Below, in pieces: positions 15,160 through 39,068 of a stretch of DNA of 48,754 nucleotides (the first letter of the stretch is position 1; each line of letters opens with the position of its first letter). The notes under the pieces were generated by a model. The model did no database searches, was not told the DNA's origin, and saw only the letters and a list, made by a program, of their open reading frames with translations. Source of the DNA: Candidatus Limnocylindrales bacterium (lineage in GTDB: Bacteria > Desulfobacterota > Binatia > UBA1149 > CAITLU01); the NCBI GenBank assembly GCA_035571835.1, contig DATNBU010000022.1:1-48754 (forward strand). The letters are read 5' to 3'. The position numbers and the translations under genes are program-made.

Positions 15160-15516
15160 ATGATGACCGACTACATCCCGGTACTGATTTCGCTCATCAT
15201 CGGCGGCGTCATCGTCGGTGCGATGACGAACCTCAATCGCCTGCTCGGCCCGAAACGTCCGACCGACATCAAAAGCGCGGCCTTCGAATGCGGAAACGAG
15301 CCGACCGGGCCGGGGTGGGGGCGTTTTTCGATCAAGTTCTACATGGTGGCCATCCTCTTCATCGTTTTCGATGTGGAGGTCGTGTTCATGTACCCGTGGG
15401 CGGTCATCTACCGGGAGCTCGGGATGTTCGGCTTCGTCGAAATGATGACGTTCGTCGCGATCCTGCTCGTGGGTTACGCCTACGCGTGGCGCAAGGGAGC
15501 GCTCGAATGGCGCTAG
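15160..15516 (+). CDS. nuoA: NADH-quinone oxidoreductase subunit A
   Basis: A 118-residue membrane subunit with three TM helices. The loop after TM1 has [11 protein letters not shown], followed by [21 protein letters not shown] and a third helix near the C-terminus, as in other NuoA proteins. Part of the quinone-proximal membrane arm of complex I. Two adjacent ATG codons (15160 and 15163) are possible starts. The 3' end overlaps nuoC by 10 bp. nuoB, which normally follows nuoA, is absent here. Confidence 0.95.
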
Positions 15517-16028
15517 ACGTCCAGGATCTGGCCGCGAAGGTGGCCGCCGCCGTTCCTGCCAGCGACGCCCGTGCGGTCGAAGGATCGCTCATGCCGATGA
15601 TTCTCGTCGGCTCGACGGAGATGCCCGAAGTCCTCCGGTACCTTCGCGACGCCCCCGGCCTCGAGTTCAAGCTGTTCGTCGATGCGACCGCGATCGACCG
15701 CGAGGCCCCGCAGGGCCTTCTCGAAGTCGTCTACATCGTGCGGTCGATCAGCGACTGGTCGGCCATGGTCGTGGTCAAGACCGTCGTCGATGCGGCCGAG
15801 GCGGTCATGCCGACGTCCTCCCACGTGTACGCCGGCGTCAACTGGGCCGAGCGCGAGATCTGGGACATGTTCGGCGTCGTCTTCGAAGGCCACCCGGATC
15901 CGCGTCGCATCCTGATGTACCCGGAGTTCGAGGGCCATCCGCTTCGCAAGAGCTACCCGTACCAGAAGCGCCAGCCGCTCACGCCCGAGCGCGATCCGCT
16001 GGCCAATCCGTGGCCCAGAAAACAGTGA
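15507..16028 (+). CDS. nuoC: NADH-quinone oxidoreductase subunit C
   Basis: A 173-residue peripheral (Q-module) subunit. The 30-kDa-subunit signature is present as [20 protein letters not shown] (about residues 113-132), followed by PLRKSYP. It stands as a separate gene, not fused to nuoD. It starts within the last codons of nuoA, preceded by AAGGGAG. It packs with NuoD and NuoB in complex I; no NuoB gene lies in this operon. Confidence 0.96.
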
Positions 16029-16056
16029 CGGCACGCGAGATCACTGAGCGCGAACG

Positions 16057-17271
16057 ATGAGCACCGAAGAAACCCGAAAGAATCTCGCCATGGCCTCCGA
16101 CCCGCTGTCGGAGATCATGGAGCTGCAGATGGGCCCTTCGCATCCGGCATGCCACGGGACCGTCAAGTTCGACCTTCGCCTCGACGGCGAGAACATTATT
16201 TCGATGGACACGACGCTCGGCTACCTGCACCGCGGCTTCGAGAAGATGTGCGAGCAGGGCACGTGGACGCAGGCGATCCCGTACACCGACCGTCTCAACT
16301 ACGCGTCGCCGCAGATCAACAACATGATCTTCTGCGAGGGCGTCGAGCGCCTCTGCGGAATCCAGGCTCCCGAGCGCGCGCAGTACATCCGCGTGATCCT
16401 GTCGGAATGCTCGCGCATCGCCGATCACCTGACCTGCCTCGGCATGTCGGTGACCGAGCTCGGCGCGATCTCGGCCGGCTTCTACATGAACGAAGCGCGC
16501 GAGATGTACTACAACCTGAACGCGCACGTGACCGGTGCGCGCGTTACGGTCAGCTACGGGCGCGTCGGCGGCCTGACGCGCGACGTGCCGCCGAACTTCG
16601 AGCAGGAAGTGCGCGCGGCGATCAAGCGCACCGAGGAAGTGCTCATCGACAGCGAGAAGCTGCTCGAGCGCAACCGCATCTTCGCCGACCGCATGAACAA
16701 CATCGGCGTGCTCACCAGCGAGCAAGCGCTGTCGTACGGCCTGACCGGCCCGCTGCTGCGCGCGACCGGCGTTTCCTACGACGTGCGCAAGGCCGCACCG
16801 TACATGCTCTACGACCGCTTCGACTTCGAGGTTCCGGTCGGCACCAAGGGCGACAACTTTGACCGCTTCTCGGTCCGTTTCGAGGAGATGAAGCAGTCGA
16901 TCCGCATCATCGACCAGGCCTTCAAGCAGATGCCGGCGGGACGCGTCAGCGTGGACGACCCGCGCTACGTGCTGCCCGACAAGAAAGACGTCTACGAGAA
17001 CATCGAAGGCCTGATGAACCACTTCAAGATCGTCATCGAGGGCGTGCGCGTGCCCGCCGGTGAGATCTACTTCGCGGGCGAAGGCGCCAACGGCGAGCTC
17101 GGCTTCTACATCGTCAGCGACGGCAGCGGGCGCCCGTATCGCGTGCGTGTGCGTCCTCCGTGCTGGTACGGAATGGCCGCGCTCGAAGAGATGTGCCGCG
17201 GCCACATGGTCTCGGACCTCACGGCGATCTTCGGACTCGTCAACATGATCGGCGGGGAATGCGACCGCTGA
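16057..17271 (+). CDS. nuoD: NADH-quinone oxidoreductase subunit D
   Basis: A 404-residue 49-kDa-type subunit that forms the quinone-binding cavity with NuoB. The N-terminal GPSHPACHG segment keeps both histidines of the quinone-site loop, PYTDRLNY supplies the quinone-headgroup Tyr region, and RPPCWYGMAALEEMCRGHMV and the C-terminal GGECDR are family features. There are no Fe-S ligands, as expected. It follows nuoC after 28 bp. A second in-frame ATG 11 codons downstream (MASDPLSE) is an alternative start. Confidence 0.96.
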   Translation: MSTEETRKNLAMASDPLSEIMELQMGPSHPACHGTVKFDLRLDGENIISMDTTLGYLHRGFEKMCEQGTWTQAIPYTDRLNYASPQINNMIFCEGVERLCGIQAPERAQYIRVILSECSRIADHLTCLGMSVTELGAISAGFYMNEAREMYYNLNAHVTGARVTVSYGRVGGLTRDVPPNFEQEVRAAIKRTEEVLIDSEKLLERNRIFADRMNNIGVLTSEQALSYGLTGPLLRATGVSYDVRKAAPYMLYDRFDFEVPVGTKGDNFDRFSVRFEEMKQSIRIIDQAFKQMPAGRVSVDDPRYVLPDKKDVYENIEGLMNHFKIVIEGVRVPAGEIYFAGEGANGELGFYIVSDGSGRPYRVRVRPPCWYGMAALEEMCRGHMVSDLTAIFGLVNMIGGECDR

Positions 17272-17299
17272 CGCGCGTCGCGGATCGAACGGACAACCG

Positions 17300-17827
17300 A
17301 TGGCTCAGCATTCGACAACCGACGCCGCCGTGGACACGGGCCCGGTCTCCTTCGGCCCGAGGGCGATGGCGGAGTACAACGAGATCCTCACCCGGTATCC
17401 CGAGCGCCGCGCCGCGCTGATGCCGGTGCTGTGGCTCGCGCAGCGCGAGTTCGGCTGGATCAGCCCATCCGTACAGACGTACGTGGCCGGCCTGATGGAT
17501 CTGCCGCAGGCCTGGGTCGAAGGCGTGGTCAGCTTCTACACGATGTACTGGCGGCGCCCGATGGGACGCTCGCACATCGCGATCTGCACCAACCTGTCGT
17601 GCTACCTGCGCGGCGCCGAAGACATCTATGACGCGGTCTGCCGGCGCACCGGCGTTGCCGCGGGCGAAGTTTCGGCAGACGGCAAATGGTCGATCGAGCG
17701 CGCCGAGTGCCTCGGATCGTGCGACACCGCGCCGATGCTGCAGCTCAACAACGACCGCTACGTCGAGAACCTCACGGTCGAGAGCGCCGTCGCGCTGATC
17801 GACAAACTGGATAGAGGCGGGAAATAG
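17300..17827 (+). CDS. nuoE: NADH-quinone oxidoreductase subunit E
   Basis: A 175-residue thioredoxin-like [2Fe-2S] subunit of the NADH-oxidising module. Ligands are Cys96 and Cys101 (CTNLSC) and Cys137 and Cys141 (CLGSC), the usual C-x4-C and C-x3-C pairs. The N-terminal helical domain contains the AQREFGWIS and VVSFYTMY phrases. It normally works with NuoF, but the gene that follows here is nuoH; nuoF and nuoG are not in the operon. Spacing to nuoH is 4 bp. Confidence 0.95.
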   Translation: MAQHSTTDAAVDTGPVSFGPRAMAEYNEILTRYPERRAALMPVLWLAQREFGWISPSVQTYVAGLMDLPQAWVEGVVSFYTMYWRRPMGRSHIAICTNLSCYLRGAEDIYDAVCRRTGVAAGEVSADGKWSIERAECLGSCDTAPMLQLNNDRYVENLTVESAVALIDKLDRGGK

Positions 17828-17831
17828 CAGC

Positions 17832-18947
17832 GTGAGCGACACCCTCCTCTTCGACTGGATCATTCCGGGCGCCAAGTCGTTCATCGTGATCTTCATGGTG
17901 CTCAACCTGGCGGCGATGCTGCTGTGGATCGAGCGCAAGGGCAGCGCGCTCATCCAGAACCGCGTCGGCGCCAACCGCGCCAGCATCCTCGGCATCATGC
18001 CGTTCAATCTCGGCTTCGTGAACACGCTGATCGCCGATCCGATGAAGCTCTTCACCAAGGAAGAGTTCGTGCCGGAAGGTGCCGACAAGTTCGTGCACGC
18101 GATTGCGCCGTTCCTCGCGCTGTTTCCGGCGGTCGTGACGATGGTCGCGGTTCCATTCGGCGACACCGCGGAGATCTTCGGCAGGACGGTGGAGCTGCAG
18201 GCGGTGCGCCTCGACGTCGGCGTGCTGTACGTCTCGGCGCTGGTGTCGATGGGCGTCTACGGCGTCGCGCTTGCCGGCTGGGCGTCGAACAACCGCTGGG
18301 CGCTTCTCGGAAGCATCCGCGGCAGCGCGCAGATGATCTCGTACGAGCTCGCGATGGGGGTCGCGCTGGTCAGCATGATCCTGTTCTACGGGTCGCTCGA
18401 TCTTCAGGCGATGGTGCGCCAGCAGGGCGGGCTGTTTCTCGGGTTTCTCCCGAACTGGGGAATCTTCTACCAGCCGGTCGCGTTCCTGATCATCTTCGTC
18501 GCCGGCATCGCCGAGTCGAAGCGCGTGCCGTTCGATCTGCCCGAGTGCGAGTCCGAGCTGATCGCCGGCTACTTCACCGAATATTCGGGCGGCAAGCAGG
18601 CCTCGTTCATGCTGTCCGACTTCGCCGAGAGCGTGATGGTCGCCGGGCTGGTGACGACGCTGTTCTTCGGCGGCTGGCAGGTCCCGTACCTCTCGAAGGC
18701 CGGCCTCGCGCTTCCCGGCATGGCGACGCTTGCGGTTCCGGCGCTGGCGGTGACGCTGCTGCAGGTCGGCGCGTTCATGCTGAAGGTGCTGTTCTTCTGC
18801 TGGCTGCAGATCCTGATCCGCTGGACGATCCCGCGCTTCCGCTACGACCAGCTCATGCGCCTCGGCTGGCAGGGCATGGTCCCCATCGCGATCGCCAACC
18901 TGATCCTGACCGCCGCGCTCATCCTCTATTTCGAGAAACCGGTATGA
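17832..18947 (+). CDS. nuoH: NADH-quinone oxidoreductase subunit H
   Basis: A 371-residue membrane subunit of about eight TM helices linking the quinone cavity to the proton-pumping arm. The first loop reads [18 protein letters not shown], and the acidic loop [20 protein letters not shown] carries the conserved glutamates of the E-channel. Starts with GTG at 17832, 4 bp after nuoE, and ends in ATGA overlapping the nuoJ start. nuoI, often next to nuoH, is missing here. Confidence 0.96.
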
Positions 18948-19465
18948 GCCCGTTCCTCTTCTATCCGATGGCGACCGCCTCGGTCATTTTCGCACTTGCC
19001 GTCGTGCTCGCGAAAAGCCCCGTGCGCAGCGCGCTCGCGCTGGTGGCGGTGATGTCGCTGCTGGCGGTCTTCTTCGCGTTCCTGCAGGCCCATCTGCTGG
19101 CCGCGCTGCAGATCATCGTCTACGCCGGCGCCGTGATGGTGCTGTTCCTATTCGTGATCACGCTGCTCAACCTCGAGTCCGACCACGGCATCGGCGAGAA
19201 GCCGAAGGTCACGGCGGCGGGCTTCGCCGCCGGCGCGATCATTGCCGGCGGGCTCGCACTCGCGATGGCGCGCGTCGTCCAGCCGGCCGGAGCGCTGCTG
19301 CCGGCCGAATTCGGCACCACCGTCGTGCTCGCGCGGCAGATGTTCGGGCGCTACCTCGTTGCGTTCGAGCTCACGTCGCTGCTGCTGCTGGTTGCCGTCG
19401 TCGGATCGGTCGTGCTCGCCAAGCGCAGCGCGGCCGAGAATGCCGAGGAGGTCACGGGACATTGA
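18944..19465 (+). CDS. nuoJ: NADH-quinone oxidoreductase subunit J
   Basis: A 173-residue membrane subunit with about five TM helices. TM3 reads [18 protein letters not shown] and keeps the Tyr and Gly around the pi-bulge that couples quinone chemistry to pumping. Overlaps nuoH (ATGA) and nuoK (TTGA). Useful as an internal comparison for the degenerate NuoJ-NuoK fusion at 35871. Confidence 0.95.
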
Positions 19466-19779
19466 GCGCCGCCGGTACCATCGGACTCACGCACTGGCTG
19501 GTGCTGTCGGCAATCCTGATGGCGATCGGCGCCATCGGCGTCGTCGTGCGCAGGAACGTGCTGATCATCTTCATGTCGGTCGAGCTGATGCTGAACGCGG
19601 CCAACCTCGCGTTCGTGGCCGCGGCCCACAACACCGGGGCGATGAACGGACAGTCGATCGTCTTCTTCGTGATGACGGTCGCAGCCGCGGAAGCGGCCGT
19701 CGGCCTCGCCGTGATCCTCGCGCTGTTCCGCAATCGCCAGACCATCGCCGCCGACGAAATCGCCCTGCTCAAGTGGTGA
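19462..19779 (+). CDS. nuoK: NADH-quinone oxidoreductase subunit K
   Basis: A 105-residue three-helix membrane subunit. Both proton-path glutamates are present: Glu41 in [12 protein letters not shown] and Glu77 in [12 protein letters not shown]. Starts with TTG at 19462 overlapping the nuoJ stop; no better start exists and the N-terminus matches the family. Followed after 18 bp by nuoL. Confidence 0.95.
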
Positions 19780-19797
19780 GCTGACAGGTATTCCGGA

Positions 19798-21740
<1,943 letters not shown>

Positions 21741-21744
<4 letters not shown>

Positions 21745-23348
21745 CCAGGCATCTGCTGACGCTTCTGGTGTTCACCCCGGCCATTGGCGCGCTTCTGGTC
21801 GCGCTGGTACCGAACCGCTCGCGCGCGCTGATGAGCTGGCTGGCCGTCGCCGTCTCGCTCGTCCCCGCGTTCTTCGCGTTCGAGCTGTGGAACCTGTTCG
21901 ACCGCAAGTACGGCGATTTCCAGTTCGTCGAGCATTTCGGCTGGCTGCCGGGGATCGGAGCGTCCTACTTCGTCGGCATCGACGGCATCTCGCTGCTGCT
22001 GGTTGCACTGACCGTGTTCCTGACGCCGCTCGTGCTGGTTTCGGCGATGGACACCGTCCACACCAAGGTCAAAGGCTACCTGGTCGCGATGCTGCTGCTC
22101 GAGACCACGATGCTCGGCACGCTCGTCGCGCTCGACCTGCTGCTGTTCTACGTGTTCTGGGAGCTGATGCTGGTGCCGATGTTCCTGATCATCGGCGTCT
22201 GGGGCGGCGAGCGGCGCATGTACGCGTCGATCAAGTTCCTGCTGTTCACGATGGTCGGGTCGCTGCCGATGCTGGCCGCGATCCTTTACCTCGTCTTCGC
22301 GCATACGCAGGCGGCCGGGGTGCCGAGCTTCGCGCTCACCGACCTTTACGGCACGGCGATGCCGACGTCGGCGGCTACGCTGTGCTTCCTTGCGTTCTTC
22401 CTCGCGTTCGCGGTCAAGGTGCCGATGTTTCCGCTGCACACGTGGCTCCCCGACGCGCACGTGGAGGCTCCGACCGGCGGCTCGGTGATCCTCGCCGGCG
22501 TGCTGCTCAAGATGGGCACGTACGGGTTCCTGCGCTTCGTGATCCCGCTGTTCCCGAACGTGATGGCAGCTTCGGCGACCTGGATCGCGGTGCTGGCCGT
22601 CATCGGCATCGTCTACGGCGCGCTGGTCGCGATGGTCCAGCCCGACATGAAGAAGCTCGTGGCGTACTCTTCGGTGAGTCACCTCGGCTTCGTGATGCTC
22701 GGGATCGCGTCGCTGAACACGCCCGGCGTCGAAGGCGCGGTCTACCAGATGCTGAACCACGGCGTCTCGACCGGAGCACTCTTCCTTCTCGTCGGCGTCG
22801 TCTACGAAAGGCGACACACGCGCCTGATCTCCGAGTACGGCGGCCTGTGGAAGCCGCTCCCGGTCTACGCCGTCTGCTTTCTGCTGATCATGCTGTCGTC
22901 GATCGGGCTTCCGGGCATGAACGGATTCGTCGGCGAGTTCCTGATCCTGCTCGGCGGGTTCCGCTTCGACCACGTGCTCGGCGCGATCGCCGCCAGCGGC
23001 GTCGTGCTCGGCGCAGCCTACATGCTGTGGATGTACCAGCGCGTGATGTTCGGCGAGGTCACCAACGAGAAGAACCTGGCGATGAAGGACATGAGTGGGC
23101 GTGAGCTCGCCGTGATCGTCCCGCTGATCGTGCTCGCGTTCGTGATGGGCGTTTACCCGAAGCCGTTCTTCGACACGATGCATGCGTCGGTGGCGACGGC
23201 GATCCACCGCATTCCGCCGGCGGCGATGGCCGCGGCCGGACACGTCGGCGATGCACGTCCTGCAAAAGTGCGCCTGCCGGGCACGCCCACATCCGTGACG
23301 TACGAAGCGCCGTCGGGCGCCGGGCACGCCGCCGGAGCAACGGAGTAA
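21741..23348 (+). CDS. nuoM: NADH-quinone oxidoreductase subunit M
   Basis: A 535-residue antiporter-like subunit. TM5 Glu is in FYVFWELMLVPMF, TM7 Lys in FAVKVPMFPLHTWLPDAHVE, and TM8 Lys in GVLLKMGTYGFLRF. The C-terminus carries a soluble Ala/Pro/Gly-rich tail of about 50 residues beyond the last helix. Starts with GTG at 21741 inside the nuoL stop region. Confidence 0.97.
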
Positions 23349-23349
23349 C

Positions 23350-24810
23350 ATGCCGCAGCCGATGTCATTCCAGTCGCTTCTGCCCGTGCTTCCGCTGCTT
23401 GCGGGAAGCGCGTGGGCCATGCTCGTGCTCGTCGTCGAGATGTTTTCGACGTCCCGGCGGTTCACCGGCGTCGCGTGGCTGTCGATCCTCGGCCTGGTCG
23501 GAATCGCCGCGCTGGCGCTGCAGCCGTATCCGCCGGGCGTCTATGTAAACGCGCTTGCCTACGACAGTTATACGACGTTCTTCACCGTGCTGACGTGCGC
23601 GTTCGGAATCGGGGCGATGGTGCTGTCGATCGACTATCTTCCAGCGGCCGGCATCAACAAGGGCGAATATTATCCGCTGATGCTGTTCGCCGTGCTCGGC
23701 GTCGTGATCATGGCTGCGGCCACCGACCTGATCGTGATGTTCGTCGGGCTCGAGACGATGTCGATGGCGGTCTACGTGCTGGCCGGCATCCTGCGCAACG
23801 ACGTGCGCTCGAACGAGGCCTCGCTCAAGTACTTCCTGCTCGGGGCTTTCGCGTCGGCGATTCTTCTCTACGGAATCGCGACGCTGTTCGCGATGACCGG
23901 CTCGACGACGCTGGCGGACATCTCGGCGTCTCTCGCCCGTCCCGGCATCTCGCCGAACGACCACCTCGTGATGGTTCTCGGCGCCGGCTTCGTGCTGGTC
24001 GGGCTCGGCTTCAAGATCGCCGCCGTGCCGTTCCACCTGTGGACGCCGGACGTCTACGAGGGCGCGCCCACGTCGGTTACCGCGTTCATGGCCACTGCGG
24101 TCAAGGCGGGCGGTTTCGCGGCGCTGCTCCGCACGGCGATGGTCGGCCTCGCGCCGCTGCATCCGGATCTCGAAGGCGTGCTGTGGGCGCTGTCGGCGAT
24201 CACGATGACGGCCGGCAACCTGATCGCGCTTCGCCAGCAGAGCCTCAAGCGCATGCTCGCGTACTCGTCGATCGCGCACACCGGATACCTGCTGATGGGC
24301 GTCGTCGCCGGCACGTCCGCGGGTGCGGAAGCTGTCCTCTTCTACCTGGTCGCGTACGGCGCGATGAACATGATCGCGTTCGGCGTGATGATCGCGCTCG
24401 CCAATGGGCCCCGGTCGGCCGAGAAGATATCCGACTACGCCGGGCTCTCGAAGGCGCATCCGATGCTCGCCGCGGCGATGACGATCTCGATGCTGTCGCT
24501 GACCGGCATGCCGCCGCTGTTCGGCTTCGTCGGAAAGCTCTACCTGTTCCAGACCGCGCTTGCGCACGGCCTCGTCGTGCTGGTCGTCGTGGCATGCTTC
24601 AACAGCGTGCTGTCGGCGGCGTACTACCTCGGCGTGGTGCGCACGATGTATTTCGAAGCGCCGGCCGAAGGCAACGTGCTTGCCAGGCCGTCGGTGCTGG
24701 CGTGCGCCGTGGTTTCGGTCGCGACCGTCGTCACGGTCGTCGCCGGCGTCGTGCCGGCGGGAATCCTCGGAGCGGTGGCGCGCGTGTTCAAGAACGTGCT
24801 GGCAGGGTAG
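23350..24810 (+). CDS. nuoN: NADH-quinone oxidoreductase subunit N
   Basis: A 486-residue antiporter-like subunit and last gene of the nuo operon. Key charged residues are intact: Glu135 (FVGLETMSM), Lys222 (GLGFKIAAVPFHLWTPD), Lys252 (TAVKAGGFAALL) and Lys396 (GFVGKLYLF). One base separates it from nuoM. It serves as the reference for the diverged NuoN-like protein at 36602. Confidence 0.97.
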   Translation: MPQPMSFQSLLPVLPLLAGSAWAMLVLVVEMFSTSRRFTGVAWLSILGLVGIAALALQPYPPGVYVNALAYDSYTTFFTVLTCAFGIGAMVLSIDYLPAAGINKGEYYPLMLFAVLGVVIMAAATDLIVMFVGLETMSMAVYVLAGILRNDVRSNEASLKYFLLGAFASAILLYGIATLFAMTGSTTLADISASLARPGISPNDHLVMVLGAGFVLVGLGFKIAAVPFHLWTPDVYEGAPTSVTAFMATAVKAGGFAALLRTAMVGLAPLHPDLEGVLWALSAITMTAGNLIALRQQSLKRMLAYSSIAHTGYLLMGVVAGTSAGAEAVLFYLVAYGAMNMIAFGVMIALANGPRSAEKISDYAGLSKAHPMLAAAMTISMLSLTGMPPLFGFVGKLYLFQTALAHGLVVLVVVACFNSVLSAAYYLGVVRTMYFEAPAEGNVLARPSVLACAVVSVATVVTVVAGVVPAGILGAVARVFKNVLAG

Positions 24811-32875: not shown

Positions 32876-33955
32876 ATGACAGAAACGATTTTTTCGACGA
32901 CGCCGCGCCGCGAGCGTGCAGTTTTCCCGGCTTTTCGGGGTTTTACGACGCGTGCGGTGACCGCGGCCGCTCTCGCTTCTGCTGCAGTCGTCACGTGGAA
33001 TCTTGCAGCCGTGACATGCGCCCGCGCCGCTGAGGGGGCCGCGCCGAAGCGGATCATCTCGCTCGCGCCCGCGATTACCGAGACGCTGTTCGCGCTCGGT
33101 CTCGGCGCCCGGGTGGTCGGTGTCTCGACGTACTGCGATTATCCGCCGGACGCAGCCGCGCTTCCGAAGGTCGGAACGTTTACCGAGCCGGTCGCCGAAG
33201 TCATCGTCGCGCTCCACCCCGATCTGGTTCTGACTTCTCCGAGCCCCGGAAACGAAACTGCCGTGCGCGCCATCGAGCGCACCGGCGTACGCGTGGCGGT
33301 GGTGCAGAGTGAAGGAGCAATTGCCGAAGCACGCAGCGCCATGCTCGACATTGCGCGCAACGTCGGCGCGATCGACGAAGGCAACCGCCTCGTTGCCGAG
33401 CTCGACGCGCGTCTCGCGGCACTGAAGGCCCGCGCGCGCGATCTTCCGCACCTGCGTGCTGCCGTAGTGATCGGCCGCGAGCCGCTCGTGCTGGCGGGTC
33501 CGGCGAGCTACCTCGGCGAGCTTGTCGAGCTTGCCGGCGGCGTCAATGTCGCGGCAGCAATCGGGGGTCGCTGGCCGCGCGTCGGAATGGAGTTCCTGGT
33601 CGCAGCCAGACCCGACGTGCTGATCGATCTGACCTCGGCGATGGGCGGAGCTCTGAAGGAGACCGCAGCTGCAAGGACCAGCGAAACCGCGAAGAACAGC
33701 GAAGCCGCGGAAACAGACGCCACCGCACAAAATCCCGCGGCATCATGGCTCGAGCTCGGGTCCGTTCCCGCGGTGGCCAACGGCCGCATCATAACGGAGC
33801 GCGATTCGATGATGCTGCGCCCGGGCCCGCGGATGGCCGATGCGGCCGACACGCTGTTCGCGGCGTTGCATCCCGCTTTGCGAAGCGACGCAGCGACGAT
33901 GCCTGGAACCTCTGCACCCGTTCCCGACGCATCCGGCGACACGGCAGGACGCTGA
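32876..33955 (+). CDS. btuF: BtuF-like periplasmic corrinoid-binding protein of an ABC importer
   Basis: A 359-residue type III periplasmic binding protein with a long N-terminal signal segment (hydrophobic residues about 26-45). The start of the mature domain, KRIISLAPAITETLFALG, then VVGVSTYCDYP and VGTFTEPVAEVIVALHPDLVL are BtuF-like. It probably delivers vitamin B12 or another corrinoid to the permease; heme or siderophore specificity cannot be excluded. An Ala/Thr/Glu-rich insertion (about 262-285) and a disordered C-terminal tail are unusual for the family. The upstream leader is hairpin-rich. The permease start lies 4 bp after the stop. Confidence 0.8.
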   Translation: MTETIFSTTPRRERAVFPAFRGFTTRAVTAAALASAAVVTWNLAAVTCARAAEGAAPKRIISLAPAITETLFALGLGARVVGVSTYCDYPPDAAALPKVGTFTEPVAEVIVALHPDLVLTSPSPGNETAVRAIERTGVRVAVVQSEGAIAEARSAMLDIARNVGAIDEGNRLVAELDARLAALKARARDLPHLRAAVVIGREPLVLAGPASYLGELVELAGGVNVAAAIGGRWPRVGMEFLVAARPDVLIDLTSAMGGALKETAAARTSETAKNSEAAETDATAQNPAASWLELGSVPAVANGRIITERDSMMLRPGPRMADAADTLFAALHPALRSDAATMPGTSAPVPDASGDTAGR

Positions 33956-33959
33956 CCGG

Positions 33960-34970
33960 ATGCCCGGCCGTCTGACCCCGACAAGGCTTGCGAGCGGTGT
34001 GGCGGCGACGGCGCTCGGAGCGGCCGTTGCAATCGCGATCGCGCTCACGGTCGGGAGCGTGCCCGTCGACTTTCACGCGCTCGTCGCGGGCGATCCCGGC
34101 ATGCGCACGATTTTCTTCGACCTGCGGCTTCCGCGCGTGCTGCTCGCGGCGATCGTCGGCGCAGCGCTGGCCGTATCCGGCGCAGCGCTGCAGCCGACCC
34201 TGCGCAATCCGCTCGCGAGCCCGGAGATCATCGGCGTCTCCGGCGGAGCCGCAATCGCTGCGGTGCTTGCGCTGGCGTTTCTTCCGGCCGGAGCGATGTC
34301 GAACGGCCTCGTGCCGGTCATCGCGTTCGCCGGTGCAACGGCATCGAGCCTGCTCGTGTTCCAGCTCGCGCACGTGCGCGGACGGCTCGACCCGTACACG
34401 CAGGTGCTTGTCGGCGTGACGTTCAATACGTTCGCGGCGGCGCTGATCCTGCTCGTGCACGCGCTCGTCGATCTCAAACGCTCCCACTCGATCGTGTTCT
34501 GGATGATGGGCGGCATCGCGATCGAGCCGTATCCGGTGGTCGCGCTCGCGGCTGCGCTGGTCGCAGCAGCGACGTTTGCGCTGCTGCGCGACGCCCGCTC
34601 GCTCGACCTGCTGGCGCTCGGCGACGAAGCCGCGCGTTCGCTCGGCGCCGACGCCGATTCGGTGCGCCGGCGCGTGTTCCTGGCATCGTCGCTGCTGGTT
34701 GGTGCGGTCGTCTCGCTTTGCGGCATCATCACGTTCGCGGGGCTCGTCGTTCCGCACGTGCTGCGCCGCCTGCTCGGAAGCGACAACCGCCTGCTGCTTC
34801 CCGCATCGTTCTTCGGCGGCGCTGCGTTTCTCGTCGCATGCGATGCGCTTGCGCGATGGGTCGCCGCGCCGGCCGAGCTGCCGGTCGGCGCAATCACGGC
34901 GCTCGCCGGTGCGCCGTTCTTCGTCTACCTGCTGCGTCGCGGCCGTGAGAAGCACGGAGGCCTGGCATGA
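33960..34970 (+). CDS. btuC: FecCD/BtuC-family ABC importer permease
   Basis: A 336-residue permease with about ten TM helices. LRLPRVLLAAIVGAALAVSGAALQPTLRNPLASPEIIGVSGGA is the family's core region, and GIITFAGLVVPHVLRRLLG the loop that contacts the ATPase. It moves B12 or a metal-chelate across the inner membrane together with the neighbouring binding protein and ATPase. The ATG at 33960 gives the expected length; a longer frame upstream overlaps the binding-protein gene. Confidence 0.9.
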   Translation: MPGRLTPTRLASGVAATALGAAVAIAIALTVGSVPVDFHALVAGDPGMRTIFFDLRLPRVLLAAIVGAALAVSGAALQPTLRNPLASPEIIGVSGGAAIAAVLALAFLPAGAMSNGLVPVIAFAGATASSLLVFQLAHVRGRLDPYTQVLVGVTFNTFAAALILLVHALVDLKRSHSIVFWMMGGIAIEPYPVVALAAALVAAATFALLRDARSLDLLALGDEAARSLGADADSVRRRVFLASSLLVGAVVSLCGIITFAGLVVPHVLRRLLGSDNRLLLPASFFGGAAFLVACDALARWVAAPAELPVGAITALAGAPFFVYLLRRGREKHGGLA

Positions 34971-35022: not shown

Positions 35023-35874
35023 ATGACGCGCGGCAGGCTGCACTTTGATGCTGTCTGCTACTCGCACGAAGCGCAGAGGCGCGGCGGAGCGCCGCCGTGC
35101 CTTTCGGACATCCGCTTGTCCGTCGAGCCAAGTCGAAGCCTTGCCATCGTCGGACCGAACGGATCCGGCAAGACCACGCTGCTGCGGCTCGCGGCGGGAG
35201 AGATCAAGGCCGCGTCGGGCCGCATCGAGATCTGCGGGCTCGATCCGTCGCGGGCGCCGCGCCGCGAGATGGCCCGGCGCATCGCAGTCGTTGCAGCGCA
35301 CGCGTCGGTCGGCTTCGGGTATACGGTCGAGGAAGTCGTGCTGATGGGGCGCGCGCCGTGGGTCGAAGGCTACGGGCTCGAGTCGGACGAGGACGTGGCG
35401 ATTGCGCGCGACGCGATGACGGCGCTCGACGTCGCGCATCTCTCCCACCGGATCTTCGACAGCCTTTCGAGCGGCGAGCGCCAGCGTGCGGCGGTTGCGC
35501 GCGCGCTCGCGCAGCAGCCGGAGCTGCTGCTGCTCGACGAGCCCGGTGCGTTCCTCGACATCAAGCACCAGATCGAGCTCTACGACGTGTTGCTCGAGCG
35601 CAGCCGCGCGGCCGGACTGACCGTCGTCTCCGTGCTGCATGATCTCAATCTCGCGGCGCTCTATTTCGAGGACGTCGCGATGATCCGCGACGGACGCATC
35701 TTCGCGTACGGCGCGCCGGACGACGTGATCACATACGCGAACGTGCGAGCCGTTTTCGATACCGACGTTTACGTCGACCGCAATCATCTGACGGGCCACC
35801 TGAATGTGCTTCCGCTGCGTCGAGGCATGGCTCGTGCAGCCGAAGGCGGGCGGCAACGGGAATCGTCCGAATGA
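35023..35874 (+). CDS. btuD: BtuD-like ABC importer ATPase
   Basis: A 283-residue ABC ATPase. Walker A is GPNGSGKT (44-51), the signature LSSGERQR (148-155), Walker B LLLLDE (168-173), and the H-loop is in VLHDLN. It energises the BtuC-like permease. The ATG at 35023 lies 52 bp after the permease stop. The TGA overlaps the ATG of the NuoJ-NuoK-like gene (ATGA at 35871), so the downstream membrane genes are probably translationally coupled to the importer. Confidence 0.92.
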   Translation: MTRGRLHFDAVCYSHEAQRRGGAPPCLSDIRLSVEPSRSLAIVGPNGSGKTTLLRLAAGEIKAASGRIEICGLDPSRAPRREMARRIAVVAAHASVGFGYTVEEVVLMGRAPWVEGYGLESDEDVAIARDAMTALDVAHLSHRIFDSLSSGERQRAAVARALAQQPELLLLDEPGAFLDIKHQIELYDVLLERSRAAGLTVVSVLHDLNLAALYFEDVAMIRDGRIFAYGAPDDVITYANVRAVFDTDVYVDRNHLTGHLNVLPLRRGMARAAEGGRQRESSE

Positions 35875-36605
35875 ACGCCGCCGACGTCGCGTTCGCCATC
35901 CTTGCAGCCGCTCTCGTGGGCGCGGCCCTGGCGGCGACGTTCGTTGCGGACACTCGGCGCGGAGCGAATGCCGTTTATGCATGCGGGCTCACGCTCGCCG
36001 CGATGCTGGCGGCGCTCGGCGCGTTCGCAGCCGCCGCGCTGCAGGCCTTTGTCGTCCTGGCTGCCGCTGCGCTGCAGCGGCGTGCGGACGCGAACGCCGT
36101 CGAGTCGACGAATGTCCCCATGCTTCGGGACGACGCGGAAACGCCGCGCGCGCGAAGCCTGGGCAGTGTCGCGCTCGTGCTCGCATTCTTCGCCCTTGCA
36201 GCCCACGCGCTCCTGATTGCGCGCTGGCCGCTCGATCCGATGAGCGCGGCGGCCGGCCCGCAGCACGTGAGTCTCTCGCACTACGTTTTTGTCAGCCTGC
36301 TGCTGTTCACGATCGGGATGCTCGCGATCGTGCTCCAGCGCACCGCGCGCGCGGCATGGATCGGAGTGGGATTGATGAGCGGCGCGTCGGTGCTGGCCAT
36401 TGCCGCCGTCGCGCGGTTCGTCGGCGGTGCGGGCGACGGACGGCTTCTGGCAGCGCTCGTGGTCGTGATGTCGTCGGTTGCGCCGCTCGTGGCCATCCGG
36501 CTCGGCAGCCTCGATCTCGATGCGAAGGCGGCCGGGCGATTCGCCAATGGCCTGGCCGGAGCCCTCGTCGGAATCACCATCGCTCTTCTGACGGACACGT
36601 GGTGA
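35871..36605 (+). CDS. Degenerate NuoJ-NuoK fusion protein, proton-path glutamates absent
   Basis: A 244-residue polytopic membrane protein. Residues about 6-70 align with NuoJ, sharing the ALQ-x2-V phrase of TM3, but the Tyr and Gly of the NuoJ pi-bulge are Val and Ala. Residues about 134-215 align almost without gaps with the NuoK encoded at 19462 (SHYVFVSLLLFTIGMLAIVLQR against [20 protein letters not shown]). Both NuoK glutamates are replaced: Glu41 by Gly167 and Glu77 by Ala204. A charged, probably cytoplasmic or periplasmic linker of about 30 residues joins the halves. It overlaps both neighbours (ATGA with the ATPase, GTGA with the NuoN-like gene). It is unlikely to pump protons as in complex I; a structural or coupling role is inferred. 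Confidence 0.7.
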   Translation: MNAADVAFAILAAALVGAALAATFVADTRRGANAVYACGLTLAAMLAALGAFAAAALQAFVVLAAAALQRRADANAVESTNVPMLRDDAETPRARSLGSVALVLAFFALAAHALLIARWPLDPMSAAAGPQHVSLSHYVFVSLLLFTIGMLAIVLQRTARAAWIGVGLMSGASVLAIAAVARFVGGAGDGRLLAALVVVMSSVAPLVAIRLGSLDLDAKAAGRFANGLAGALVGITIALLTDTW

Positions 36606-38119
36606 TCACCGGCGTTCCGCAAACCCTGCAGCCGCTGCTCGCCGACCTCGTTCTGTGCGCGGGCATTCTTGCGCTGGTGGTGTGCGCGCAGGTCGTCTCG
36701 CTTCGCGCGCGCAGCGCGGACGTTGCGCTGCTCGTCTTCGCGGCGACCGCCGTCGCGTCGGTCGCATCGATGGACGCGCAGCCGGGCTGGGCGGTTCCAC
36801 GAATGCTCGTCGTCGATCCGTTCGGGTCGTTCTTCCAATTCACGCTGTCGATGATGGCGATGGCAGAGGTATGGCTGGCCGCGCGCTCGCGTGCGGAGCC
36901 GGCGGGAACGTCGCGCTGGTCGGCAACGGCGCTTGCCGCATCGCTGCTTGGAATGTTCACGATGGTCAGCGCGGCCAACGTCGTTACGGCATGGCTGGGA
37001 TTCGAAATGGTGAGCATGGCGTGGGCGCTGTGGATCGGCACGCAGCGCGGCGCCGCGCTCGCCGAAGCGGCCGCAGCCCTGCTGCAGGCCGTGGCGGCAT
37101 CCGCGACGGCGCTGCTCGGCTTCGCGCTGCTCTACGGGCTGACCGGCACGCTCGAATACGCGGGCCTCGGCTCGAGGCTGCCGCTCGCGCTCGCCATGCC
37201 CGGCGGCAGGGCAGTGCTCTACACGGGCCTGGTTCTGGTGCTGGCCGGGTTCGCATCACGGATCGCGGTCGTCGCTTGGCAGCCATGGCGGGCCGATCTG
37301 ACGGAGAATGCACCGCTCGCGGTATCGGCGTGGCTCGAGACGGCCGGCACGATCGCCGTGCTCGCGATGATCGCGCGCTTCCTGCGCGCCACGCTGGTCG
37401 CGTCGTTCGCAAGCGGCTACTGGATCGCACTTCCCGGAATCCGCTGGCCGCACGTGATCTCGGTCGCGGCCATGGTGACGATGACGATGGGCAACCTGGC
37501 CGCCGTTCGCGCCGACAATCTGCGCCGCATGATCGCATGGCTGTCGGTTGCGCAGTCCGGCTACCTGATGATGGGACTGGCGGCCGCGAGCGATCGCGGC
37601 CTCGAGGCCATGCTCACGCACGGTGTCGTGTACGCGCTGATGCTGATGGGAGCGCTCGCGTGCCTGGCGCCGGTGCTCGAGCAGGTCGGGCACGCAGGCG
37701 GACCGGACATCGACGTGCTGCGCGGTCTTGCGCGGCGTGGAGGAAGCTGCCGGATGCTGTCGGCCGCGCTCGTCGTATTCTTCCTGTCGCTCGCGGCTGT
37801 GCCACCGCTGGCCGGATTTGCGGGCAAGGCGCGGCTGTTCACCGCGGTGTTCGGTTCGAACGACCTGCTGCTTGCCGCGATCGGCGGTCTCAACAGCGTG
37901 CTGGGCCTCGTCTGCAGCGTGCGCGTCAGCGCCATGCTGTTCGAGCGAACCGGCGCAGAGGACGCGGACCCTGGCCGTCGGCGACAGCGCCCCGTCGAGC
38001 TCGACGCCGACGCGATGCTGCTGATCGCGCTGCTGCTGGCGGGGACGATCGGCATCGGGCTGTGGCCGGACGCACTGGTGTCGTTCGCGTCGCGATCGGT
38101 GGCGTTCTTCGGTGGATGA
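36602..38119 (+). CDS. Diverged NuoN-like antiporter subunit
   Basis: A 505-residue polytopic protein related to NuoN (486 residues at 23350). Shared features are WLGFEMVSMAWAL (Glu135 kept), the NLRRMIAWLSVAQSGYLMMG segment and VPPLAGFAGKARLF (Lys409 kept). Two key residues differ: the TM7 Lys is Arg220 (SRIAVVAWQPWRADL) and the TM8 Lys is Thr250. The NuoN His in IAHTGY is Gln here. Starts with GTG at 36602 within the stop of the preceding gene, so it forms one coupled unit with the NuoJ-NuoK-like gene and the importer. Function unknown; a complex-I-derived ion-translocating or scaffolding partner is inferred. Confidence 0.78.
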   Translation: MITGVPQTLQPLLADLVLCAGILALVVCAQVVSLRARSADVALLVFAATAVASVASMDAQPGWAVPRMLVVDPFGSFFQFTLSMMAMAEVWLAARSRAEPAGTSRWSATALAASLLGMFTMVSAANVVTAWLGFEMVSMAWALWIGTQRGAALAEAAAALLQAVAASATALLGFALLYGLTGTLEYAGLGSRLPLALAMPGGRAVLYTGLVLVLAGFASRIAVVAWQPWRADLTENAPLAVSAWLETAGTIAVLAMIARFLRATLVASFASGYWIALPGIRWPHVISVAAMVTMTMGNLAAVRADNLRRMIAWLSVAQSGYLMMGLAAASDRGLEAMLTHGVVYALMLMGALACLAPVLEQVGHAGGPDIDVLRGLARRGGSCRMLSAALVVFFLSLAAVPPLAGFAGKARLFTAVFGSNDLLLAAIGGLNSVLGLVCSVRVSAMLFERTGAEDADPGRRRQRPVELDADAMLLIALLLAGTIGIGLWPDALVSFASRSVAFFGG

Positions 38120-38186
38120 GGCAATCTGCCGCGCCGTAGTGGCCCGGGTCCGTCGGGCGGGCGCGACGCACGGAAGGGGTATCGCA

Positions 38187-39068
38187 GTGAATCGAAACGC
38201 ATTCGTGAGTCGTCTGGCCGCCGCCGCGCGGCTTTCTCTTCCGCTGGCTATCCTGGGCATTGGCGTGCTGCTTCCGCAGTGCGGGCCGAGCGATGCAACC
38301 GAGACCGTCGGGTTCGTGCTCGACCGCAACGTGGGTCGCATCAAGAGCATCGATTTCAAGGTCAACGCTTCGTCGGGAAACTTCACGAAATCCGACGGAG
38401 GTTGCGATCCGAGCAATGCGGCGGCCGGCACGAACATCGTGATTGCCGGATCGTCTTCGGCGGCGACGGTTGCCGTAGCGACTTCCAGTGGGCTCGTTGC
38501 GGCCAGCTCCTCTTCCACGTCGACCGAAGAGCCCACGACCACGACCAGCACGACGACGACGACGCACACCACCAACACGACCGCCAGCACGTCTTCGACC
38601 ACGACGACGATCGGCAGCGGAAAGCCCGAATTCGATTCGAACTCGGACGGCGGTCAGCTGACCATCCACATCTCCAACCCGAACGGGATTCCTTCGGGCT
38701 CGGCGCTGGCGTTCTGCCGCTTCCAGGGCAGTGCCAGCGAAACCGACTTCGACATCACCACCACGAGCTGCACGCTGGCGAACGGTGCGTCGTGCGACCT
38801 CACCCATCCGGCAGCAGTCGTGACGGTCAGTACGACCACGACGACGACGGTTACGACGACGACGGTCACACTGCTCGACATCGGCGAGGGTTGCTCAGCA
38901 AACAGCGAGTGCAGCAGCAGCCACTGTGTCAGCGAAGTCTGCTGCAGGACCGCGTGCGACGGTAGCTGCGGTGCGTGCATCCTGGAGTTGACAGGACTAC
39001 CCGATGGAACGTGCGGGACCTGTTCCGTAACGGCTTGCGACAACAACGGGGACTGCGTCCTCCCGTAG
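38187..39068 (+). CDS. Secreted protein with Thr-rich linkers and a Cys-rich C-terminal domain
   Basis: A 293-residue protein with a signal peptide (about residues 8-30, SRLAAAARLSLPLAILGIGVLL). A globular part (about 36-130) is followed by Thr/Ser-rich runs (about 133-165 and 236-257), likely extended linkers. The C-terminus (about 262-293) is Cys-rich and opens CSANSECSSSHCVSEVCC, resembling the Cys-rich motifs of secreted proteins in Myxococcota-like bacteria. A surface or outer-membrane location is probable; a Cys follows the hydrophobic core (LPQCG) but does not form a convincing lipobox. GGAAGGGG precedes the GTG start. Function unknown. Confidence 0.72.
   Translation: MNRNAFVSRLAAAARLSLPLAILGIGVLLPQCGPSDATETVGFVLDRNVGRIKSIDFKVNASSGNFTKSDGGCDPSNAAAGTNIVIAGSSSAATVAVATSSGLVAASSSSTSTEEPTTTTSTTTTTHTTNTTASTSSTTTTIGSGKPEFDSNSDGGQLTIHISNPNGIPSGSALAFCRFQGSASETDFDITTTSCTLANGASCDLTHPAAVVTVSTTTTTTVTTTTVTLLDIGEGCSANSECSSSHCVSEVCCRTACDGSCGACILELTGLPDGTCGTCSVTACDNNGDCVLP

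Follow-up and report, generated by a model that had tools for sequence, protein, structure and literature searches.

The window analyzed here, a 48,754-nt stretch of DNA from a Candidatus Limnocylindrales bacterium, raises the question of what has become of a gene that resembles nuoK of complex I, has lost both glutamates of the proton path and lies directly behind genes for a BtuFCD-like importer. The initial annotation read it as a NuoJ-NuoK fusion (JK) and described its residues correctly, but overlooked both a NuoN-like partner gene (N-like) and an operon that has been lost from the locus. Our preferred reading, to which we assign a probability of about 60%, is that JK and N-like are the remnant of a dismantled complex I, nuo-2, of which the J-K-N block is left, probably as a membrane pair that does not pump. 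The features concerned are given below in window coordinates.

15160 to 24810, forward strand: canonical complex I operon (nuo-1), in which A, C, D, E, H, J, K, L, M and N were seen
32876 to 33955, forward strand: BtuF-like substrate-binding protein (Peripla_BP_2), conserved left flank
33960 to 34970, forward strand: BtuC-like permease (FecCD family), start codon picked by eye
35023 to 35874, forward strand: BtuD-like ATPase, ATG start picked by eye
35871 to 35874, forward strand: overlap of the btuD stop and the JK start, ATGA, 4 nt (GTGA in the sister species)
35871 to 36605, forward strand: JK, putative NuoJ-NuoK fusion remnant, 244 aa in an open frame; the K half spans roughly residues 132-220, with Gly167 and Ala204 in place of the glutamates, and a further C-terminal helix is predicted at 218-240
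36602 to 36605, forward strand: overlap of the JK stop and the N-like start, GTGA, 4 nt (GTGA in the sister species)
36602 to 38119, forward strand: N-like, NuoN-like gene and putative partner of JK, GTG start, 505 aa; TM7 Lys replaced by Arg220, TM8 Lys by Thr250 and His by Gln318, with TM12 Lys409 and TM5 Glu135 kept
38112 to 39068, forward strand: Thr-rich putative lipoprotein with a CGP motif, right flank, start uncertain

The reading frame at 35871-36605 is open as described, and alignment to the window's own NuoK confirmed a K half in which Gly167 and Ala204 stand in place of Glu41 and Glu77. As judged by profiles, the resemblance of this half to NuoK is real but weak. JK matched the NCBIfam NuoK model (NF004320) over residues 134-204 with E=8.4e-7 and 29 bits, below the cut-off of 57 and against 110.6 bits for the window's own NuoK, and the Pfam Oxidored_q2 model (PF00420) with E=0.011 and 15.9 bits, below the cut-off of 26.1. 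When a two-row profile, comprising JK of the window and its homolog from the sister species (G001), was compared with an 11-row NuoK profile using hhalign, residues 131-203 matched with 97% probability (E=3.4e-11), while a NuoA profile run as a control gave 2%. In a MAFFT alignment with 59 other NuoK proteins (62 loci with a NuoK match minus three dropped for length), the Glu41 position was Glu in all 59 and Gly in the window's JK, and the Glu77 position was Glu in 58 and Ala in the window's JK. The lone exception at Glu77, a NuoK from candidate division KSB1 (L150:6079-6387), has Ala there and is encoded near J, L, M and N. Loss of the glutamates in homologs, raised in the initial annotation, was seen in JK of G001, the only other genome found with the gene, where the two positions are Ser and Pro. 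The substitutions themselves are not conserved (Gly/Ser and Ala/Pro), which points to a lost constraint rather than to a conserved swap.

The first half of JK is weakly identified as NuoJ by sequence, and the call was based mainly on gene order. No NuoJ match was found at E<=1 in Pfam (PF00499) or NCBIfam, and hhalign aligned this half to a NuoJ profile with E=0.0039 and 8.6% probability, colinear over columns 1-140. Of the fusion proposed originally, the K part was thus borne out by both profile and position, and the J part by position only. The remark that the pi-bulge Tyr/Gly is lacking also held, since the YVGG stretch falls in a 6-residue gap in both species. The last NuoJ helix is likewise absent from the alignment of both, and a C-terminal stretch beyond the K part is present in both, modeled as a helix in the window protein. 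A combined alignment of JK with NuoJ and NuoK rows placed NuoJ on the K half and was left aside.

In structure prediction, the JK model reached a pLDDT of 68 and a pTM of 0.49. Its K part, for which NuoK rows were included in the input, had a pLDDT of 81-86 over residues 131-180 and 59-68 over residues 181-220; the J half, built without homologs, had 61-79 over residues 1-80 and 56-66 over residues 81-130. The top five Foldseek chains for the K half, which we take to be NuoK-type, had probabilities of 0.99-1.00 and rmsd of 1.5-2.0 over 79-80 columns, at E values of 0.27-0.49. The VIA comparison of the K half gave Z 8.3, rmsd 2.8 and 85 aligned residues, with unrelated helical chains at Z 7.9. 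Prediction leans toward a NuoK-like K half as originally proposed, albeit steered by the NuoK rows and with no match at E<=0.001. No NuoJ fold was recognized for the J half among the structure matches listed.

N-like matched the NuoN model TIGR01770 over residues 13-491 (E=1.3e-57) with 195.9 bits, below the cut-off of 332.6 (162.8 bits for N-like of G001), and PF00361 nearly full length with 124 bits, above the cut-off of 21.5. Its model, built with NuoN rows in the input, had a pLDDT of 86 and a pTM of 0.90, and the ten best Foldseek rows had TMq values of 0.81-0.86 and E values of 1.9e-19 or better. The best of these matches are presumably complex I N-type chains, and the predicted product has a confident N-type fold. 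PMC10212512 names LysTM7, LysTM8, LysTM12 and GluTM5 as the key residues of each antiporter-like subunit, and helices of N-like were assigned by motif following that source. N-like of G001 has Arg at TM7, Ser at TM8, Lys at TM12 and Ala at TM5, and the histidine is Gln in both species. Retention of the TM12 Lys, together with the TM5 Glu in the window, means that some ion movement by N-like is possible.

Comparison with related genomes indicated where the pair came from. The genus of the window is represented in this analysis by two genomes, that of the window (G000; 98.36% complete, 46 contigs) and G001. G004, of the same family, and G007, of the same order, carry a nuo-1 operon ending in L-M-N, followed by btuF-btuC and then by nuo-2, an 11-subunit operon of the order nuoA-B-C-D-H-I-J-K-L-M-N. 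In G002, G005, and G006 (same family), btuF-btuC again preceded a nuo-2 operon, and in G003 the M-N end of nuo-2 lay at a contig edge. D adjoined H in the nuo-2 operons, leaving no space for nuoE, F, and G. A BtuD-like ORF stood between btuC and nuoA in G005 and G007, at distances of 78 and 107 nt from nuoA, respectively, and was not in frame in the other genomes. In both the window and G001, btuF-C-D was followed by JK and N-like with no other nuo-2 gene at the locus, and the distance from the btuD stop to the N stop was 2.2-2.3 kb, compared with 10.7 kb in G005. The three btu genes matched the FecCD, Peripla_BP_2, and ABC_tran families, with scores below cut-off for the BtuC and BtuF models. 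On the right flank, lipoprotein-like genes with the CGP motif were found after N in the window and G001 and beside nuo-2 N in G003 and G005; BLAST showed a weak likeness of the window and G001 genes to that of G005 (E 0.18 and 0.003, respectively), which was otherwise judged by eye, and the window gene had no Pfam match at E<=0.001. Two TAG codons interrupt the frame of the nuo-2 N of G004 (L057:1321-2790, reverse strand), whose protein is well conserved apart from these; they reflect either an assembly error or early decay.

Those of the missing subunits that were searched for were not found elsewhere. NuoH of the nuo-2 type was absent from G000 and G001 and found in all four other genomes searched, and NuoB of this type was absent from the same two and found in both others searched. 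Genome-wide searches covered B and H in G000 and G001 and L and M in G000, while the absence of A, C, D, and I refers to the locus. The only PF00361 matches across G000 were N-like and the L, M, and N of nuo-1. Neither B nor I of nuo-2, used as queries, matched anything in the window; the sole PF01058 (NuoB) match of its genome lies on contig C13. The nuo-1 operon, in which E adjoins H with no room for F or G, was retained in both genomes.

In the NuoN tree, built from 23 rows, the two N-like proteins fell in a clade with the nuo-2 N of G002, G006, and G005 (support 100/100), and joining the pair to nuo-1 N was rejected (p=0.017). An origin of JK-N from the window's own nuo-1 operon is supported by neither synteny nor tree. 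Two features of the tree call for caution: the stem of the pair measures 2.17 changes per site and was flagged by the program for its long branch and odd composition, and the nuo-2 N of G003 and G004, members of the same family, lie outside the clade; both count against the preferred reading. The tree was calculated without G002_N1 and without G008, G010, and G021, which are close to rows kept; G004_N1 was included as a tblastn match. Five nuo-2 NuoN proteins have 270 invariant columns in common, and the residue was kept in both N-like proteins at 89, in one at 71, and in neither at 110. By the same type of count, the window's N-like kept 130 of 271 such columns and its nuo-1 N 140 of 271, so that N-like is about as distant from nuo-2 N as nuo-1 N is, which also counts against the preferred reading.

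Both genes have changed far faster than the neighbors chosen for comparison. Between G000 and G001, JK was 36% and N-like 47% identical in protein sequence, compared with 59-94% for 18 neighboring genes, and dN/dS was 0.60 (95%, 0.44-0.82) for JK and 0.55 (0.44-0.68) for N-like, compared with 0.08-0.32 for the neighbors; these 18 were hand-picked from the genes common to G001, with nuo-1 nuoC, J, and M not included. Such rapid change, together with the loss of key residues and their differing replacements in the two species, would also be expected of slow decay, in which JK-N is a non-functional relic whose frames stay open since high G+C makes stops rare. The J half of JK, with a dN/dS of 0.72 (95%, 0.42-1.07), is compatible with neutrality, and in neutral simulations 25 to 33% of JK copies (25% at the best third-position divergence) and up to 17% of N copies were free of stops. 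Another base composition gave lower proportions, a point against decay: among 200 neutral copies of each gene, none of N and 17 of JK were stop-free.

Against decay, the N-like omega of 0.55 was below every neutral replicate at all three divergences simulated, with 60 replicates at each (lowest value 0.56), and its second-position identity was above every replicate at all three. We conclude from these comparisons that weak purifying selection acts on N-like. The outcome for JK was mixed, and purifying selection on it is suggested: at the two lower divergences its omega fell under every replicate but, at the divergence best matching its third positions, it lay inside the neutral range (0.60, against a mean of 0.82 and a minimum of 0.42), where second-position identity, at 0.62, exceeded all 60 (maximum 0.58); no replicate reached this identity at either of the two higher divergences, whereas at the lowest some did (maximum 0.66). 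A first simulation of 20 pairs with the other base composition likewise supported N-like (lowest 0.64) and left JK borderline (lowest 0.57). Both frames are open in both genomes and both junctions are 4-nt overlaps, which further weakens the case for decay, and we consider it improbable, although it ranks second after the retained membrane pair. A recent pseudogene is made less likely by G001, which shares both the glutamate loss and the open frames; with the same layout in two species whose proteins are 36-47% identical and without stops, a recent pseudogene or an assembly join was rejected.

The history implied by the preferred reading, JK-N as the remnant of nuo-2, can be put together from the gene order, the other genes missing at the locus, the overlaps and the ancestry of N, all of them shown here. 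The genus ancestor would have lost nuoA-B-C-D-H-I and nuoL-M from this locus; its nuoJ would have lost its last helix and been fused to nuoK, and nuoN would have closed up behind, giving the present junctions of 4-nt start/stop overlaps, with the order of these events being our reconstruction. Since the quinone-side and iron-sulfur genes are gone from the locus and key residues of K and N have been replaced, JK-N is not the old redox-driven pump. With these residues lost, proton transfer by the known route in JK-N is very unlikely, so that a loss of pumping is suggested. J, K, and N are neighbors in the complex I membrane arm, and since they are adjacent there, JK and N would most likely still form a membrane pair. 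This pair may be made in step with the BtuFCD-like importer through translational coupling and weak purifying selection may preserve it for its fold in the membrane, not for proton transfer. The original proposal that a conserved fold with lost residues signals a new role is unsupported as stated: the two species differ in the replacing residues, the dN/dS of the J half is compatible with neutrality, and the dismantling of nuo-2 is simpler, with lysines of N-like lost too.

A bolder version, which we hold only tentatively, is that JK and N, non-pumping by the known route, were taken over as an importer accessory or membrane scaffold translationally coupled to the btu genes; if true, this would be a bioenergetic machine without its engine, the core membrane-arm block being kept for another use. 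More doubtful, and third in our ranking, is an importer-linked new function in which JK-N serves the BtuFCD-like importer, or some other membrane process, as a dedicated component and owes its fast evolution to adaptation. The overlap with btuD in both species, where G005 and G007 have a gap before nuoA, and the extra C-terminal stretch of both JK proteins would fit such a role, as would the identical new residue found in both N-like proteins at 45 of the 110 sites where both have lost the nuo-2 residue. However, the position beside the btu genes is ancestral, common new residues are expected from a long shared stem, omega is below 1 overall, and no other Pfam or NCBIfam family scored above cut-off in JK or N-like. 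That JK-N supplies exchangeable or extra membrane subunits to the remaining nuo-1 complex I is highly improbable, for although nuo-1 persists in both genomes and the predicted fold of N-like is still N-type, J, K, and N are already encoded within nuo-1, its K with both glutamates, and N-like belongs to the nuo-2 lineage.

The pair has a narrow distribution. Among 148 genomes of the class, with at most 17 candidates scored per genome, G000 and G001 were the only two that the two-JK profile matched over its full length; another 100 genomes matched at E<=1e-6 from profile position 97 on, that is, in the K part, and 46 gave none. A search of 58 genomes with the single JK protein gave the same picture. 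Occurrence in just two of 148 genomes counts against the preferred reading. A first scan of named public genomes returned no relative. In a second, with alignment, the best 80 of 545 NuoN loci were inspected, and among these K adjoined N at one of 62 loci with both in view. This acidobacterial locus (L155:974-3273) reads nuoI-J-K-N, so that neither L nor M separates K from N; its J and K are unfused, and K retains both glutamates. No described case of a J-K-N remnant was found in the literature covered, in which subscription journals are mostly not represented.

The finding is lineage-specific and any function putative. It offers a before-and-after view of the dismantling of a multi-subunit pump, with the whole operon in related genera and a two-gene remnant here, and the loosened constraint on that remnant is measured against nearby genes. 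A function for the pair, if there is one, would reveal which portion of the membrane arm of complex I can be useful without redox drive.

Among known systems, complex I is reported to be encoded by Binatota (PMC8262859), and an 11-subunit complex I-like enzyme without NuoEFG is known, e.g., that of Desulfitobacterium hafniense (PMC11238625); gene order points to an enzyme of this kind as the ancestor, since complete operons of that make-up occupy this place in related genera. In contrast, the window locus is without A, B, C, D, H, I, L, and M, has J and K fused and has lost proton-path residues. With NuoK/ND4L (PF00420), JK shares a profile match, and its modeled K half leans toward NuoK-type chains, but it scores below both cut-offs, has lost the glutamates, is fused to a putative NuoJ remnant and carries an extra C-terminal stretch. 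N-like shares with NuoN/ND2 (TIGR01770) a full-length match, a predicted N-type fold and the TM12 Lys, but scores below the cut-off, has lost the TM7 and TM8 lysines and has no L or M adjoining. Mrp-type antiporters likewise combine a NuoK-like protein (C) and a NuoN-like protein (D) in a complex that has no redox arm, and Mrp C and D chains also turned up, further down, in the structure matches of JK and N-like. As differences, N-like scored higher with NuoN models than with MrpD, key residues are lost, and no Mrp genes were noticed adjoining the pair.
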